Below are positions 3,116 through 20,983 of a DNA stretch of 30,179 nt, piece after piece. Position 1 is the first letter of the stretch; every line of letters begins with the position of its first letter. The DNA lies in IMG/VR virus record IMGVR_UViG_3300017971_002764, positions 1-30,179 of that record, one strand, 5' to 3'. The notes beneath the pieces were generated by a model. That model saw nothing but the letters and a program-made list of their open reading frames with translations. It did not search any database and was not told the DNA's origin. Source of the DNA: a virus. The translations under genes and the position numbers were made by a program.

Positions 3116-4399
3116 ATGGCAGGGCCAACTTTCAGCGACTTGGAAACCTTTGGGCTTCTTAAGGAGCTATACGCAGATGATGTTAAGTATCAGGAGCATA
3201 TCCAAAATAGTATTTACAACTTTGTAAAGCACGCTGATCCGGGCGAAATAGAGTTCGACGGCAACTATTTTAATATCCCTGTCCAATTTGAAATCAACGA
3301 AAGTTACGCAGCGATTAACGACGACGAAAGACTTCCTGAATCTGGAAGCTCTAAGGGCGATTTCGCTAAGTACCGAGTTAAACAAATGTACTCTGTACTT
3401 GAAGCATCTACTTTCGCCTCAACCCGTGGACACCGAAATGGTCGTCCAAACGGCAAGTACCTAGATGACTTGCTCAAAGGCACCCTCCTAAGCTTCATGT
3501 CAAACCTAGACTTTGACATTTATGGCAACGGACGTGGCCTTCGCGGCGAGATTGTTACCGCTTCTGGTGGCGCTTCAAGTTTCACCGTTGTTACCTCCAT
3601 GAAGCTTCGTCCTGGTATGAAACTAGACTGGTATGACTCCACTCTAGCAACCAAGCGCGGCTCAATTAGAATAGCAATCAAATCCGTAGACCGCTTAAAT
3701 AAGACGGTTTACATTGACTCAACCTTTGGAACTGGCGCAGTACCAACCGGTGCAGTTGCGGGCGACAAGCTAGTTGTTTACAACGCGCTTGCTCCTAATG
3801 AGCCTGCCGATGGTCGTCATATCCTTGGTTTTGACCGCATGACCGATGCTTCTTTAGCAATCGGTAGTCTAAGCCCAAGTGATTATGCAGCTTGGATGCC
3901 TGTAAATATTAACGCTTCTGGCGGTAATCCTTCTCAGGAAATCCTGCAGCAACACTGGGATAGCATGTACGTCATTTCCGGCGTTTATCCTAACCGTATG
4001 GTTTTCAACCCATCGTGGAAACGTGCTTACCTAAGCCAATTCCTAAACCAACGTCGTTTTACTTCAAACACGTTCGACACTGGCGCAACTAGCCTAACCT
4101 TCTCCCCTGTGAAAATGGGTAACGATGAGAAGAAAGCTAAGCCGGTGGCATTCGAAATGCTTGAGGATAAGAATGCTTCGCCTTCCGAAGTTCTTCTTTG
4201 GAACTACGACGCATTCTGCTTCGCTACCGATTACAGCGATACACCGCACTTGGCCGACGAAGATGGTGACGAGTTCAGATTCCGTCAAGGATACGATGCT
4301 CTAAGCGCATTCTATCGTTTCTGGGCTAACCAGGTTGTATTCCAACGTAATGCAATCGGTAAGTCATACAACTACGCGGCACCTTCAGGCACTATCTAA
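3116..4399 (+). CDS. major capsid protein
   Basis: This is a 427-aa protein without membrane segments or signal peptide. The N-terminal ~60 residues are helical with IEFDGNYFNIPVQFEIN, then a long helix (KYLDDLLKGTLLSFMSNLDF) and a central beta-rich region with GxxLVVYNA-type strands. The C-terminal half has YVISGVYPNRMVFNPSWKRA, which resembles the spine and A-domain pattern of HK97-fold coat proteins that carry a VxxPxxxxxL segment. Length fits T7/P22-class coats. A strong GGAGGT Shine-Dalgarno site precedes ATG 3116, and a weak hairpin follows the stop. It heads the rightward virion operon. The call rests on overall pattern, length and context; the scaffold-like candidate is 4 kb downstream rather than directly upstream, which is unusual. 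Confidence 0.75.
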   Translation: MAGPTFSDLETFGLLKELYADDVKYQEHIQNSIYNFVKHADPGEIEFDGNYFNIPVQFEINESYAAINDDERLPESGSSKGDFAKYRVKQMYSVLEASTFASTRGHRNGRPNGKYLDDLLKGTLLSFMSNLDFDIYGNGRGLRGEIVTASGGASSFTVVTSMKLRPGMKLDWYDSTLATKRGSIRIAIKSVDRLNKTVYIDSTFGTGAVPTGAVAGDKLVVYNALAPNEPADGRHILGFDRMTDASLAIGSLSPSDYAAWMPVNINASGGNPSQEILQQHWDSMYVISGVYPNRMVFNPSWKRAYLSQFLNQRRFTSNTFDTGATSLTFSPVKMGNDEKKAKPVAFEMLEDKNASPSEVLLWNYDAFCFATDYSDTPHLADEDGDEFRFRQGYDALSAFYRFWANQVVFQRNAIGKSYNYAAPSGTI

Positions 4400-4441: not shown

Positions 4442-4759
4442 ATGGACGACGAAAACAACATTGTTACCGATGAGATGTTGCTACAGGCTATACGCAAACG
4501 TCTCATGGAAGATATTCAGCGCAAAGAGCAACAGGCAGCAATTGTCAACCAAATCTATGGTGGCGCAGCTGGTCCTGCTCGTGGCGTTATGGGTGCTCTA
4601 GGCGGAGCGCAGCAAGGCGAGGGAGTCGATCCGGGCATGTTCGACTATTTCGTAGATATCACTCGCGAAGACCTACCTGAACTCAATCCAGAAACCGGAA
4701 AACCTTTGGGCTGGAAGAAATCAGTCCACAGATACCGTAAAAAAAAAGACCAGAGATAG
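4442..4759 (+). CDS. hypothetical virion-associated protein, zero-frame product of a probable -1 frameshift
   Basis: This is a 105-aa protein from ATG 4442 (a GTG at 4439 is the alternative); an AAGGTG site lies just upstream. The N-terminus is acidic and helical (DEMLLQAIRKRLMEDIQRKEQQAAI), the middle is Gly/Ala-rich (GGAAGPARGVMGALGG), and the C-terminus is FDYFVDITREDLPELNPETG followed by a basic tail HRYRKKK. No family is recognised. Nine consecutive A at 4739-4747 encode the KKK, and the zero frame stops three codons later. Directly after the A run the -1 frame is open for 98 codons and reads as ordinary protein. A slip would give a 200-aa fusion. It follows the capsid gene, so a minor head or assembly role is likely but unproved. 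Confidence 0.65.
   Translation: MDDENNIVTDEMLLQAIRKRLMEDIQRKEQQAAIVNQIYGGAAGPARGVMGALGGAQQGEGVDPGMFDYFVDITREDLPELNPETGKPLGWKKSVHRYRKKKDQR
4739..4747 (+). other. A9 slippery site, probable -1 frameshift signal
   Basis: In the zero frame the run reads CGT AAA AAA AAA GAC CAG AGA TAG, so the heptamer A-AAA-AAA (4741-4747) can be re-paired one base back and the stop comes at once. The -1 frame continues as AGA CCA GAG ATA GAC to 5043. A 6-bp stem with one G-U pair (GGTGGC 4774-4779 with GCCGCC 4788-4793) lies 26 bases downstream, farther than usual for a stimulatory hairpin. RNA polymerase slippage on A9 would give the same product. A homopolymer miscount in the assembly is the trivial alternative. 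Confidence 0.55.
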
Positions 4760-5043
4760 ACCCTGATAATGACGGTGGCCCTGACGAGCCGCCTTCCTCA
4801 CCTTCCGGGGTTATGGCTCAAATGAATGATGATGACCTTGAGCGACAACAAATCCCCGAGGATGAATGGTATCGTCAAATCCATGGCATTAATCCTATGA
4901 AATATGCTGGGGAAGGTTGGTTTGCGACAGACGAATACGCTAGAGGGGAGGATGTTGATGACCCTTGGACTAGGGGTGAGATTGGCCGTGAAGGGGAGTA
5001 TTATCCTGGGCCAGATCTTCTCCGCCGTTGGAGAGGATACTAG
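4747..5043 (+). CDS. -1-frame extension of the preceding gene
   Basis: This is the open frame reached by slipping one base back at 4747; it encodes 98 residues up to TAG at 5041-5043. The first ~22 residues are an acidic Pro/Gly/Ser linker (RPEIDPDNDGGPDEPPSS), then MAQMNDDDLERQQIPEDEW and a Tyr/Trp/Gly-rich, acidic end (EGWFATDEYARGEDVDDPW, GEYYPGPDLLRRWRGY). An independent start at ATG 4813 (76 aa) is possible but poor: the only G-rich bases (GGGG 4807-4810) are two bases away, too close for a Shine-Dalgarno site. The linker before ATG 4813 has protein-like composition, which favours fusion over separate initiation. The last 74 bp overlap the 3' end of the antisense HNH gene. No family recognised. 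Confidence 0.5.
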   Translation, partial: RPEIDPDNDGGPDEPPSSPSGVMAQMNDDDLERQQIPEDEWYRQIHGINPMKYAGEGWFATDEYARGEDVDDPWTRGEIGREGEYYPGPDLLRRWRGY

Positions 5044-5494
5044 CATGGCGTTTTTCATTGCGTTCTTTTACATGGAGCTTTTGGTGTTCGGATCTGGACA
5101 TAATCTCAAGATTCTCCAAACGATTATCTCTCTTGTCACCATTCTTGTGGTGGACGATCTCATTAAAGCCAAGCGTTCTACCAAGATGTTCTTCCATGAT
5201 TACGCGGTGTTCTTCTCTTCTACGCCCATTACGGTCGTACACGATTTTATACGACTTCTTAGGAACTCCTCTACCTCTCGAATGTTCCGCAAAGCATTTT
5301 CGAGAGCAATAAAATTTATCTTTACGGCTTTTCTTTTTCTTAAAAGAGATCCCGCAATTAGCGCAATTGATCGAAATCTTAGTATCAAGGGAAGAAGATT
5401 TACCTTTAAGAGATCCCCAGTAACATTGATACGAACAGTATTTTGCTCCAGTTTTAAGTGGTCTCTGACAGGCTTTGCACGTTAAAATGTTCAT
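4970..5494 (-). CDS. HNH homing-type endonuclease with two N-terminal zinc ribbons
   Basis: This is a 174-aa protein from ATG 5494, the first methionine outside the neighbouring gene. Two Cys4 zinc-binding clusters come first: C6/C9/C20/C24 and C44/C47/C63/C67. The C-terminal half is an HNH nuclease of the homing type: EEHRVIMEEHLGR (H96), NEIVHHKNGDKRDN (H115, H116, N118), RLENLEIMS and EHQKLH (H137, H141). It would cut DNA using one divalent metal ion at the HNH site. The gene is antisense to the virion operon and lies between the frameshift gene and the next small gene, the usual position of a freestanding phage homing endonuclease. It overlaps the 3' end of the rightward gene by 74 bp. 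There is no Shine-Dalgarno site. The last ~20 residues look like read-through from the junction with the neighbouring gene. Confidence 0.85.
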   Translation of the reverse strand: MNILTCKACQRPLKTGAKYCSYQCYWGSLKGKSSSLDTKISINCANCGISFKKKKSRKDKFYCSRKCFAEHSRGRGVPKKSYKIVYDRNGRRREEHRVIMEEHLGRTLGFNEIVHHKNGDKRDNRLENLEIMSRSEHQKLHVKERNEKRHASILSNGGEDLAQDNTPLHGQSHP

Positions 5495-5503
5495 AGGACT
5501 GGT

Positions 5504-5530
5504 ATTAAACGACAAATAAGGAAATTTCAA
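5504..5530 (-). promoter_or_regulatory. putative promoter for the HNH gene
   Basis: On the minus strand TTGAAA (5530-5525) and TTTAAT (5509-5504), each five of six matches to consensus, are separated by 15 bp, which is two short of optimal. The predicted transcription start falls within a few bases of the HNH start codon at 5494, which has no Shine-Dalgarno site, so a leaderless mRNA is possible. Motif match only. Confidence 0.3.
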
Positions 5531-5745
5531 TGAAAAACCTAATGAAATACCTAAAAAAGATGGGTTACGACAGCATTGATGATTTAGCAGCCGCAAAAGG
5601 TGGTAGTGCAGCCGATAAGATTCACCAAAAACTTGCCGATCACCAATCTGGCAAGGACTTTCTTTATGAGTTAAGTCCTGGTGCTATGGGTAGCGATCCA
5701 GAATACCTAGAGATTCTTAAGAAGCTTTTGGGTAATGGGAAATGA
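5530..5745 (+). CDS. small helical protein with KYLxKMG N-terminus
   Basis: This is a 71-aa protein of unknown family. It begins MKNLMKYLKKMGYDSIDDL, an amphipathic basic helix, and ends with YLEILKKLLGNGK. An AAGGAAA site lies upstream of ATG 5530. The KYLxKMG motif at residues 6-12 recurs at residues 7-13 of the next gene's product, which suggests a common docking or targeting signal, or an old duplication of the N-terminus. It is the first rightward gene after the HNH insertion and lies 41 bp before the next gene. A small virion protein is inferred from position only. Confidence 0.55.
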   Translation: MKNLMKYLKKMGYDSIDDLAAAKGGSAADKIHQKLADHQSGKDFLYELSPGAMGSDPEYLEILKKLLGNGK

Positions 5746-5786
5746 AATCAGGTACGATATTGGTAGTAATTAACTAGGAGGAAATA

Positions 5787-6215
5787 ATGGGCGGTGCATT
5801 AGCAAAATATTTGCAGAAGATGGGTAAATCAGCGGGCGGCATGGCAGCTGGGGCAGGCGAAATGGCAGGCGGCGGCAAAGAAGCCTTAATGAAGCTTTTA
5901 GCTCAAGGGAAGAAAAAAGGTATGGAAGGTCTTGAAGCAGTGAAAACTGGTGGACAAAAAGGGTTAGATTATCTAGCCGAACCTTCCGATATTCCGAGGG
6001 CGTCTCAACTAGCTTTTTTAGGTGGTACAGGCATTTTGGCTAAAGAATACGGCCAGCAAAAAGCCCTTAATAAAATGATGGGTATGGAAGAGGATGAGAT
6101 TGAAGAGCTTTTAGCTGCTTTAGAGGAAGGTCGTGGATATTACGGCTCCCAAGATAAATTTGAACACCAGAGAAGCGTTGCGCCGTACATGAAAATGTAT
6201 GAAATGACTAAATAA
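5787..6215 (+). CDS. Gly/Ala/Met-rich small virion protein candidate
   Basis: This is a 142-aa protein. N-terminal MGGALAKYLQKMGK carries the KYLxKMG motif shared with the gene before it. Residues ~17-30 (GGMAAGAGEMAGGG) are a short glycine/alanine stretch, residues ~31-62 are basic and helical (KEALMKLLAQGKKKGMEGL), ~71-86 are mildly hydrophobic (RASQLAFLGGTGILAK), and the end is acidic and helical (EDEIEELLAALEEG). A strong AGGAGG site precedes ATG 5787. No family is recognised. Position between capsid and terminase, and glycine-rich composition like several later genes, suggest a minor head or DNA-ejection protein; this is inference. Confidence 0.55.
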   Translation: MGGALAKYLQKMGKSAGGMAAGAGEMAGGGKEALMKLLAQGKKKGMEGLEAVKTGGQKGLDYLAEPSDIPRASQLAFLGGTGILAKEYGQQKALNKMMGMEEDEIEELLAALEEGRGYYGSQDKFEHQRSVAPYMKMYEMTK

Positions 6216-6225
6216 GGATTAAGGT

Positions 6226-6813
6226 ATGCCTTATGACCCTAAAAAAGAAAACGACGACGCGTTCTGGAGATCGATTCGGGATGCAGCGCTTTCTGGATCT
6301 TTATCGGGCCTCGTATTGGGCGCGGGTGGTCGTTTTTTGGGTGGTGGTCGTACTCTTGCTGATCTTGCTAAAGCTGGCGCTGGAGGTGCCGCTCTATCGG
6401 GCGGAATTTCGGGTGGATCAGTCGCAGCGGGAAACATACTCATGGGACCCCCAGAAGAGGAAGAAACACAGCCTTATACACGAAGGGGTGCTCTCGGAGG
6501 ATTGGCTGGGGGAGCTTTACTTGGAGGTTTGGCTGGCGGGCTTGCTGGAGCCGGAAAGATTCCAAAAGCAGCTGGAAAGCTCAAAGGAGTCGTCCCCACC
6601 GAAAACCTCTTGTTTGAAACTCTGGCAAAGTATGGAAAAGCACCTACAGCCGGAAGAGTAGCCGCTGGTACTGGCATCGGAGCTGGTACTGGAGGAATTG
6701 GTAGCGCTTTCTTAGGCTCAGATGAGGGAATGCAGGTTGATATGATTCTTGCTGAACTTGACGAAGCTCAGAAACGCCGCCTGCTCGCAGAACTGGAGAA
6801 CAACGATGGCTGA
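6226..6813 (+). CDS. glycine-zipper protein, putative membrane-active ejection protein
   Basis: This is a 195-aa protein. Two glycine-zipper tracts dominate: residues ~23-70 (SGSLSGLVLGAGGRFLGGG, then KAGAGGAALSGGISGG) and ~88-110 (GALGGLAGGALLGGLAGGLA), with a third at ~143-165 (GRVAAGTGIGAGTGGIGSA). Repeated GxxxG spacing is typical of helices that pack tightly in membranes. The first 20 residues are charged, an acidic PPEEEE hinge separates the first two tracts, and the C-terminus is an acidic helix (ILAELDEAQKRRLLAEL). The start ATG 6226 follows AAGGATTAAGGT. It overlaps the next start by 8 bp. Stored ejection proteins that insert in the host membrane have such tracts; the role is inferred. 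A membrane protein of another kind is the alternative. Confidence 0.55.
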   Translation: MPYDPKKENDDAFWRSIRDAALSGSLSGLVLGAGGRFLGGGRTLADLAKAGAGGAALSGGISGGSVAAGNILMGPPEEEETQPYTRRGALGGLAGGALLGGLAGGLAGAGKIPKAAGKLKGVVPTENLLFETLAKYGKAPTAGRVAAGTGIGAGTGGIGSAFLGSDEGMQVDMILAELDEAQKRRLLAELENNDG

Positions 6814-7291: not shown

Positions 7292-8120
7292 CAATCAATC
7301 TACCCAACAAACGCCAACTACAGCTGATCCGGCTACTGGTGGCGGCGAAGGCCAGGCTAGCGTCCAAGACCTTATGCCTTATCTCAAAAACCTCGATTCT
7401 ACCGTCAAAAACCTCGACCAAAAATATCATGATGCAAATTCCAGAGCGACCGAAAGCCAGGAGACGTTAGACCGCCTTAAAAAGGTTTTGGTTGGTGATG
7501 AGTCTGAAGCGGAAGCGACGCCATGGTATGAGGATATGCAAGACTACTACCTCAAACAAGCTATGGAAGCAGAAAAAGAAGGCCAGGGCATTCCCCTTAC
7601 TGCGAACCTTGCTGTAAAGCTTGCTGAAGTAGCTCGTCAAAATGAAGCTTTGACCAAGCAACTTGAGGATTTAACCAAAAAGCAGCAAGTTATGGCTGAC
7701 CCCATGGTACAACTCGACAACCAAACCTATATGAATATCGACACAACTATCGAGAATCAATTAGGTAAAATCTATGGGGAAGTTCCGGCATTTCAATTTG
7801 ATGCGATAACCAAAGAACTATCTTCAACGATTAATCAAATCAAAAAAGATCATCCGCAAGCATGGGATGAGATACGTAGAAGCCCAACCAAACAACAACA
7901 ACTCGCTAATCATTTCGTCATGAAAAACGTGCCGCCAAAGGCTCGGGAAATGATGCAAAACGAGAAGATTCAAAACACTCCGATGACTCAACAGGAGCTA
8001 CTACAAGCTTTTGATGAGAGCAAGGAAATCGAAGACCCAAAACAGCGTACTCGCATCCAACAAAACATTCGCCAATCAATTCTTGAGCAAATGTTGCAGG
8101 ATAAGCGCAAGCGCTGGTAG
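7221..8120 (+). CDS. Gln-rich coiled-coil protein, candidate scaffold
   Basis: This is a 299-aa protein. Residues 1-45 are disordered and rich in Gly, Ser, Thr and Gln (SQAPSANSFQSGDNQSTQQT). Residues ~48-90 and ~128-160 are coiled-coil-like (LKNLDSTVKNLDQKYHDA, VARQNEALTKQLEDLTKKQQ). The rest is helical and charged and ends in a basic LEQMLQDKRKRW. This composition (acidic disordered start, helical body, short basic helix at the C-terminus) is typical of procapsid scaffolding proteins, whose C-terminal helix binds coat protein. AAAGGA lies 8-9 bases before ATG 7221. It overlaps the previous gene by 71 bp and ends 2 bp before terminase. A scaffold normally sits next to the coat gene, so this call is tentative. 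Confidence 0.5.
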   Translation: MAGFLGGEAQGSQAPSANSFQSGDNQSTQQTPTTADPATGGGEGQASVQDLMPYLKNLDSTVKNLDQKYHDANSRATESQETLDRLKKVLVGDESEAEATPWYEDMQDYYLKQAMEAEKEGQGIPLTANLAVKLAEVARQNEALTKQLEDLTKKQQVMADPMVQLDNQTYMNIDTTIENQLGKIYGEVPAFQFDAITKELSSTINQIKKDHPQAWDEIRRSPTKQQQLANHFVMKNVPPKAREMMQNEKIQNTPMTQQELLQAFDESKEIEDPKQRTRIQQNIRQSILEQMLQDKRKRW

Positions 8121-8122
8121 CT

Positions 8123-9445
8123 ATGATAGACCTTCGTAGTCTAAAGCCTGTGCAATCCATGGTGGCGTCGCTTTTGTTTAGAAAGCGGCGTCTACTTGTG
8201 TCTTTGCCTCGCCAGGAAGGTAAGACAGAGCTAGGCGTTCGCCTTATTAAAGATTTGATAACCCCAGAAGAAACCCGCACCGCATTATTCTTGGCCAAGA
8301 ACAAATTAGCTGCTAAAAAGGCTGCATATGAAAAATTTATGCGCTTATTTCCCAAGACTAACTTTGAGGTTAACACCGAGCAGGTTTACAACAAAGGGCA
8401 TGTTACTGCGCGTTGTTACGTTGACAGCGTGGATAAAGACCCGGACCGTATCCGTGGGGGTACATACCACTTTATCCATTGGTCAGAGGTTGCGTTCTCC
8501 CAATTCGAGAAGGGAGTTACGGTTTTCGACGTTGTTGACAAAATTCTCAAGCCAACCCTTCGAAAAACAAATGGATATGCCTATCTCGAATCAACGAATA
8601 ACGGGCTTAACGGTTGGCATGAGCTATGGCATCAAGCGGAAGATTATGGGTTTTCTACCTTTTCCCTATCTTTATCCGACCTTGTCTACATGGGCCTTGT
8701 CTCAGCCGAAGAATACGAAAGACTTAAATCAGATACCCACCCCGATGTTTTTCGACAAGAGTATGAATGCGAGTGGGTCACCTTCCAGGGTAAGGTCTAC
8801 AATGAATTCGAGCCCCAGAAACACGTCAAAGATATTCCCTACCCAGAATCCTGGCAGCGAGTAATTGCCGGAATCGATTGGGGATACGAGGACGCAACGT
8901 GCGTTCTATTCGCCTATGTTAAAGATGGTGTCACTCATGTATTCGATGAGATCTACTTGCGCCAGAAGACCTTAGAAGAGGTTTTAACGGCTATATTCGA
9001 GCACTACACTAAGGTTTGGCATTGCTCTAGTCTTGCCGCAGCCGCAGACCACGAGCCTGCACGTAACGAAGAGCTAATCCGGCGAGGTATCCCTTGTGCC
9101 CCAGCAAAAAAAGCCAACGTTCTGGGTAACAGACTAGAAATTAAAGAAAAGTTTTGGCGAGATGAGATTTTGATTCATCCTCGCTGCAAATATCTCCTTA
9201 GAGATCTACAGGCCGCCGTTTGGGATGCCAAGAAAACCAATGAAATCGACGAATCCCAATGTACTTGGGGCCATTTCGACGCCGAGGCAGCTTTAAGGTA
9301 TCTTATTAGAGAGCTATCAGCCTTTGAGGAAGAGGAACCAACGATAGACCCTAATAAGTTTACCGACAATGTCTCGTCAACGGCTTGGAAGATGAGAAAA
9401 ATGAGGGAGATGGAAATCAATGGCGATTACAGTAGGGGAGATTGA
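8123..9445 (+). CDS. terL: terminase large subunit
   Basis: This is a 440-aa DNA-packaging motor. The ATPase domain carries a Walker A motif PRQEGKT (residues 29-35), a Walker B region YHFIHWSE (E122 as catalytic glutamate, Ser in place of the usual Asp) and a coupling motif LESTNNG (155-161). The RNase H-like nuclease domain has its three acidic positions: D252 in AGIDWGYEDATC, D309 in AAADHEPARNEEL and D386 in GHFDAEAALRYLIREL. It pumps DNA through the portal into the procapsid and cuts concatemers. The size is at the compact end for the family and both domains are complete. ATG 8123 lies 2 bp after the previous stop with no clear Shine-Dalgarno site, so translation probably depends on reinitiation. 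It overlaps the adaptor gene by 26 bp. Confidence 0.93.
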   Translation: MIDLRSLKPVQSMVASLLFRKRRLLVSLPRQEGKTELGVRLIKDLITPEETRTALFLAKNKLAAKKAAYEKFMRLFPKTNFEVNTEQVYNKGHVTARCYVDSVDKDPDRIRGGTYHFIHWSEVAFSQFEKGVTVFDVVDKILKPTLRKTNGYAYLESTNNGLNGWHELWHQAEDYGFSTFSLSLSDLVYMGLVSAEEYERLKSDTHPDVFRQEYECEWVTFQGKVYNEFEPQKHVKDIPYPESWQRVIAGIDWGYEDATCVLFAYVKDGVTHVFDEIYLRQKTLEEVLTAIFEHYTKVWHCSSLAAAADHEPARNEELIRRGIPCAPAKKANVLGNRLEIKEKFWRDEILIHPRCKYLLRDLQAAVWDAKKTNEIDESQCTWGHFDAEAALRYLIRELSAFEEEEPTIDPNKFTDNVSSTAWKMRKMREMEINGDYSRGD

Positions 9446-20728: not shown

Positions 20729-20983
20729 ATGCACCCGCAAACTAAGATTTACGTGGCTTCTATGCTTGGGATGATCCGCCAAGCCTGTGATGGGATTGAA
20801 CTTGCCCTTGGTACCGATGATAGAGCTTCCGTAAATGGTACACTAAAGGACATGACTCCCAACTTTGGGAAAGTCGATGAAAAAGCCTCTTATTTGACTA
20901 AGGAAGAGGACGACAAAGTGGGAGAAATGTTAGGATTGGTTGCAGAACAACCTTTAGAGGAAGAAACTAATGCCAGTGAGTAA
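20729..20983 (+). CDS. small hypothetical protein before portal
   Basis: This is an 84-aa protein from ATG 20729, chosen because AGGAGG lies 5-6 bases upstream; an in-frame ATG at 20711 precedes that site and is unlikely. The N-terminal half is helical (QTKIYVASMLGMIRQACDGI), followed by a polar stretch and an acidic C-terminal helix (TKEEDDKVGEMLGLVAEQPL, EEETNASE). It overlaps the portal start by 14 bp, so the two are probably translated together. No family recognised; a small partner of portal assembly is possible. Confidence 0.55.
   Translation: MHPQTKIYVASMLGMIRQACDGIELALGTDDRASVNGTLKDMTPNFGKVDEKASYLTKEEDDKVGEMLGLVAEQPLEEETNASE

Follow-up and report, generated by a model that had tools for sequence, protein, structure and literature searches.

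We describe two small neighbouring genes, here called A and B, that directly follow the capsid gene in a virus record of 30 kb (IMG/VR record IMGVR_UViG_3300017971_002764, 30,179 nucleotides; hereafter the window, of which one strand is presented, with all coordinates counted from its first letter). We propose that in the window phage and its nearest kin A and B are very probably joined by recoding at a run of A close to the end of gene A. In this model, which is built on sequence comparison, A and B would be neighbouring small proteins of the head region, and the majority of mRNAs and ribosomes would give A alone (105 amino acids [aa]). In a fraction, either one A would be gained by slippage of the RNA polymerase or the ribosome would shift to the -1 frame on A_AAA_AAA, and this slipped fraction would bypass the stop codon of A and end in a 200-aa A-B fusion. 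The ratio of A to A-B would matter for head building, and the recoding would take place in the window phage itself. In relatives devoid of the run, A and B are separate proteins coupled by overlapping stop and start codons.

A run of A and a -1 frame kept among related phages

The nine A (A9) at 4739-4747 lie in phase with gene A, which extends over 105 codons from ATG 4442, its stop standing three codons past the run (CGT AAA AAA AAA GAC CAG AGA TAG). On the 5' side, a TAA of the -1 frame (4738-4740) abuts the run; the -1 frame is open from 4741, and the stretch from AGA at 4747 to TAG at 5041-5043 counts 98 codons, resulting in a fusion of 102 + 98 = 200 aa. An earlier note, made from the letters alone, had reported the nine A three codons before the zero-frame stop, the open -1 frame of 98 codons, and two products of 105 and 200 aa sharing 102 residues, all of which we confirmed. 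The fusion would have the junction residues K-K-R-P-E-I and the linker stretch RPEIDPDNDGGPDEPP in the -1 frame of the window, with RPEIDPDNDGGPDEPPSSPSGVMAQMNDDDLER as a junction or linker peptide. Roughly one A9 per strand is expected from the composition of the window (0.76 in Markov sequences); the run is therefore unremarkable by itself, and it is its position and its conservation that are remarkable.

Conservation was assessed in 12 genomes, i.e., the window, MW202458 (ctKpZ937, also labelled L005), and ten further contigs cited below by their L numbers. Two contigs (L019 and L020) were excluded, as they have distant capsid relatives only (21-22%) without A or B downstream. A first search with the capsid protein as the sole query returned no relatives, whereas alignments did find them; the final two scans of the viral collection yielded no further family members, and plasmids yielded none. 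Armatimonadota were considered as hosts and rejected, a single contig of a metagenome-assembled genome having matched among 291 genomes, and no host is claimed.

The capsid proteins of the 11 related genomes are 51-67% identical to that of the window, and A followed by one B stands directly after this same capsid gene in all 12 genomes. Gene A is 30-49% identical among genomes, and B, single-copy in each relative, is 33-53% identical to the window B over the compared stretch (40-53% in the six relatives with the run). The run with B in the -1 frame is found in 7 of the 12 genomes, counting the window, as A9 in the window, L009, and L021 and as A10 in L004, ctKpZ937, L008, and L016. L008, which is AT-richer, has three more A9 runs, at 2820, 6417, and 8532. 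The five genomes without the run (L003, L010, L013, L014, and L018) have a B with its own ATG overlapping the stop of A, in the form ATGA in L003, TGATG in L010, and ATGCGTGA in L013, L014, and L018, and the Shine-Dalgarno sequence at this ATG is strong (-8.4 to -9.3 kcal/mol where computed). A continuous A-B frame occurs in none of the 12 genomes. On the capsid tree the run genomes form one clade with L010 as the single exception (7314-7808), which lies inside this clade yet shows a long C-terminal extension of gene A and the overlap with B; under a simple reading of two changes on the tree, one gain and one loss, L010 lost the run secondarily.

The run and the -1 relation persist in the seven genomes despite flanks that are at chance level, the 21 bases on each side of the run being 30% and 27% identical between genomes (0.27-0.30). 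The run length is 9 or 10, the surroundings compensate, and B is always at -1. Given the Lys codons of each genome, the preference for AAA in the run reaches a p value of ~3e-5, ignoring shared descent. Moreover, a stop codon right 5' of the run shuts the -1 frame in six of the seven run genomes, so that the frame of B can be entered only within the run. The +1 frame meets a stop after no more than 14 codons in every run genome, and stray products would therefore be short. Altogether, these sequence comparisons argue for a real, selected mechanism of -1 recoding at the A run, which we consider well supported. The earlier note's proposal of a short and a fused product made by -1 recoding is thus strengthened by six homologues with A9 or A10 and B at -1.

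Runs of nine A are error-prone in certain sequencing technologies, and the real gene could be imagined as one continuous A-B frame broken by a homopolymer error in the reads or in the assembly. This explanation is hardly credible, and as a general one it is refuted: the -1 relation recurs in every one of seven independent records, which come from different sources and have 9 or 10 A, a continuous frame is present in no record, and A and B are separate genes in five others. The earlier note itself had named homologues with eight or ten A in one continuous frame as evidence that would speak against its proposal; in the alignment no run length yields a continuous frame, and six homologues keep the run together with B at -1. 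Runs this long are also prone to replication slippage, and their length does vary between 9 and 10 from species to species, which would agree with phase variation, part of the phage population having A and B in frame. A phase-variable locus should, however, be met in frame at times, and an in-frame length was found in none of the seven run genomes, though 9 and 10 A both occur with compensating flanks; we regard phase variation as very unlikely.

Routes into gene B

The start codons available to B differ among the run genomes. In the frame of B, no ATG, GTG, or TTG precedes the core in L008, L016, and L021, and the first start-type codon in L016 and L021 is a GTG at the conserved V-D-P. Because no start codon precedes the core, slippage is the only evident route to B in these three genomes, and likewise in L009, whose sole ATG falls a little way into the core, past the REEF motif.

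The window itself is less clear-cut. The earlier note had taken ATG 4813 as the only possible start and described it as lacking a usable ribosome site. ATG 4822, nine bases on, is also in frame, and the second statement was too strong: a GGGG lies 2 nt 5' of ATG 4813 and 11 nt 5' of ATG 4822, giving duplexes with the anti-Shine-Dalgarno sequence of -4.5 and -5.7 kcal/mol, respectively, and comparison starts in the window are no better (gene A, -3.9 kcal/mol; terminase, -2.9 kcal/mol). An additional stand-alone B could be made from ATG 4813/4822. The Pro/acid linker was placed correctly, since it precedes any possible start of B and is free of stop codons in the -1 frame. This linker (RPEIDPDNDGGPDEPPSSPSGV) has similar Pro-rich counterparts in L009 and L021, where no start codon precedes them; owing to this resemblance and to the conservation of the run, the A-B fusion appears to be the likelier product in the window phage.

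Alternatively, B could be a separate gene expressed from ATG 4813 or 4822 by re-initiation after the stop of A, the run being a relic or coding noise. Both ATGs are there, the five relatives without the run have a separate B that starts at an ATG of its own, and an ATG immediately precedes the core in L004 and ctKpZ937. On the other hand, 53 bases separate the stop of A from ATG 4813, where the site is weak, the -1 frame has no stops in the stretch before this ATG, L008, L016, and L021 offer no start before the core, and the run is kept while its flanks are at chance identity. Re-initiation as the whole explanation is thus improbable. Recoding at the run, the preferred explanation, nevertheless has several points to its disadvantage: the window, L004, and ctKpZ937 do have an ATG before the B core, which immediately precedes the core in the latter two and, in L004, has a good site provided by the GGGG after the run; the ribosome site of ATG 4813/4822 in the window is weak but not hopeless; all seven run genomes share descent; and the Lys-rich end of A might alone favour runs of A.

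As to the machine that slips, given recoding, we moderately favour slippage of the polymerase with the addition of one A as the main route, the ribosome being the less probable but still substantial candidate, and both may act together. This preference, drawn from sequence features, arises because the runs always count 9 or 10 A, though 7 A would be enough for A_AAA_AAA, and because no stimulators are shared. Nine A suffice for efficient slippage of bacterial RNA polymerase in vivo (PMC5009743), runs of A8 or longer commonly signal programmed transcriptional realignment (PMC3711429), and the A9 and A11 of tssM genes act by transcriptional slippage (PMC4256274).

Ribosomal frameshifting on A_AAA_AAA or A_AAA_AAG as the main route, with the polymerase not slipping, would also fall under recoding at the run; it is a possible explanation, though a doubtful one. 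A slippery heptamer, A_AAA_AAA or A_AAA_AAG, is in phase in all seven run genomes. In L004 and L016 the site is A_AAA_AAG and is followed by the stop directly or after one codon, which speaks for the ribosome in these two phages. Ribosomal frameshift sites usually need stimulators, and some known cases do without one. A Shine-Dalgarno-like stretch lies upstream in L004 (-5.6) and perhaps, more weakly, in ctKpZ937 (-4.3), but no consistent upstream site was found among the run genomes. Folding of 80 nt on the 3' side in the seven genomes gave no significant structure and none that is shared (z scores from -1.45 to +1.34), pseudoknots and long-range elements being outside this test. Moreover, runs are never shorter than nine A, and in Escherichia coli A_AAA_AAG is the best ribosomal slip site and A_AAA_AAA is much less shift-prone (PMC5009743).

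Gene products and genomic context

Gene A carries a conserved "DYFVDI.RED....GW.K.VHRY" hairpin and a Lys-rich C-terminal end. AlphaFold2 places a helix at residues 4-37 and strands at 67-77 and 91-101 (predicted local distance difference test [pLDDT], 67; predicted template modeling score [pTM], 0.28), and A is thus predicted, with modest confidence, to consist of a long N-terminal helix, a Gly-rich linker, and the hairpin. The core of B has the consensus "E.W......INPMKYAGEGWFATDEYAR..D......GE.GREGEYYPGP"; AlphaFold2 gave it no confident fold (pLDDT, 57; pTM, 0.21), and B resembles a short binding segment of acidic and aromatic character. Neither protein has a family match in PHROGs or Pfam, and no Ig-like or other recognised domain was found in B. 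As the earlier note had stated, A and B thus belong neither to the tail chaperones nor to the T7-type capsid genes; no tail chaperone family matched either of them, and they adjoin the capsid gene, whose identification in that note agrees with the match to a major head protein family (Table 1). This position suggests a role in the head or in head completion. Since some phages have A and B as two proteins and others as a fusion, the two probably bind each other or act at one place.

The virus of the window is a tailed phage, as indicated by genes for a large terminase (at 8123) and a portal-like protein (at 20970). On the minus strand, directly after gene B, lies an HNH endonuclease gene (4973-5494; longer frame, 4970-5596; PF13392 HNH_3, E 5e-14), the end of which overlaps the end of B in antisense. 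This gene looks like an inserted mobile gene, because B is followed directly by another small gene in L003, L004, and ctKpZ937. Small Gly/Ala-rich proteins with glycine-zipper-like stretches follow B at 5530-6813 and are also present, in varying number, in relatives.

Table 1. Coordinates of the A-B locus in the window
Feature	Position	Strand	Evidence
Major capsid protein gene	3116..4399	+	phrog_14242 major head protein, E 1.4e-22
Gene A, zero-frame product of 105 aa	4442..4759	+	After the capsid gene in 12/12 genomes
Putative A9 slippage site, zero-frame AAA AAA AAA, includes A_AAA_AAA	4739..4747	+	9-10 A at the equal place and with the equal frame relation in 7 genomes
Gene A zero-frame stop TAG	4757..4759	+	Sequence
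Gene B, -1 frame extension: acidic/Pro linker, then conserved core	4741..5043	+	Core kept in 12/12 genomes
Linker RPEIDPDNDGGPDEPPSSPSGV, without stop in the -1 frame, 5' of every possible B start	4748..4812	+	Sequence
Candidate independent B start ATG (second ATG, 4822-4824); weak ribosome site	4813..4815	+	Anti-Shine-Dalgarno duplex energies

Relation to known recoding systems and significance

Most known cases of recoding in phage morphogenesis concern tail chaperones and capsid proteins. A search for literature on the A-B gene pair, with a coverage that excludes most subscription journals, found none. The closest parallels for the run are cases of poly-A transcriptional slippage, namely, tssM1 of Citrobacter rodentium (A11) and tssM3 of Yersinia pseudotuberculosis (A9) (PMC4256274) and dnaX of Thermus (PMC5009743), in which an in-frame run of 9-11 A gives a short and an extended product from one gene; as for A-B, no ribosomal stimulators were noted for tssM1. 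These are cellular genes, whereas A-B is a pair of the phage head region whose second part is a separate gene in relatives.

Among phage systems, lambda gpG/gpGT (PMC5009743) likewise yields, within a morphogenesis region, a short product and, at low frequency, its -1 fusion to a second domain. Tail assembly chaperone genes are placed before the tape measure gene, whereas A and B adjoin the capsid gene, show no match to chaperone families, and have a long A run as the slip site. The capsid protein frameshifts in T7/T3 gene 10, in Lactobacillus phage A2, and in Listeria phages (PMC5009743) also give two virion-region products with a shared N terminus by recoding; in these cases the extension, frequently an Ig-like domain, is on the capsid protein, whereas the extended gene described here follows the capsid gene (ending at 4399) and B has no recognised domain. 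The poly-A frame transitions of the GeneTack study, in which adjacent open reading frames are joined at A-rich heptamers or at A8 and longer, are similar as well, and that study sets start-stop overlaps apart as coupled gene pairs (PMC3711429); the A-B gene family holds both solutions, the run and the start-stop overlap. The recoding of A-B is a further example of an established type, the less usual part being the alternative arrangements within one family.

We tentatively suggest that this family may switch over evolution between separate proteins with stop-start coupling and a fusion made by a poly-A transcriptional slip. L004, which combines the run, an ATG, and a ribosome site formed by the same A10GGGG, could be an intermediate. 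Standard annotation misses the A-B recoding, as in GenBank record MW202458.1, where B is called from ATG 351 and no feature is listed under the gene A match (7-339). Our study adds, beside the capsid gene, an uncharacterised gene pair with strong comparative support. Relatives manage the same job without recoding, and the gain and loss of the slip site are therefore traceable. If the proposed switch is true, the family would provide a natural series for the rise of programmed transcriptional slippage in a virion gene.
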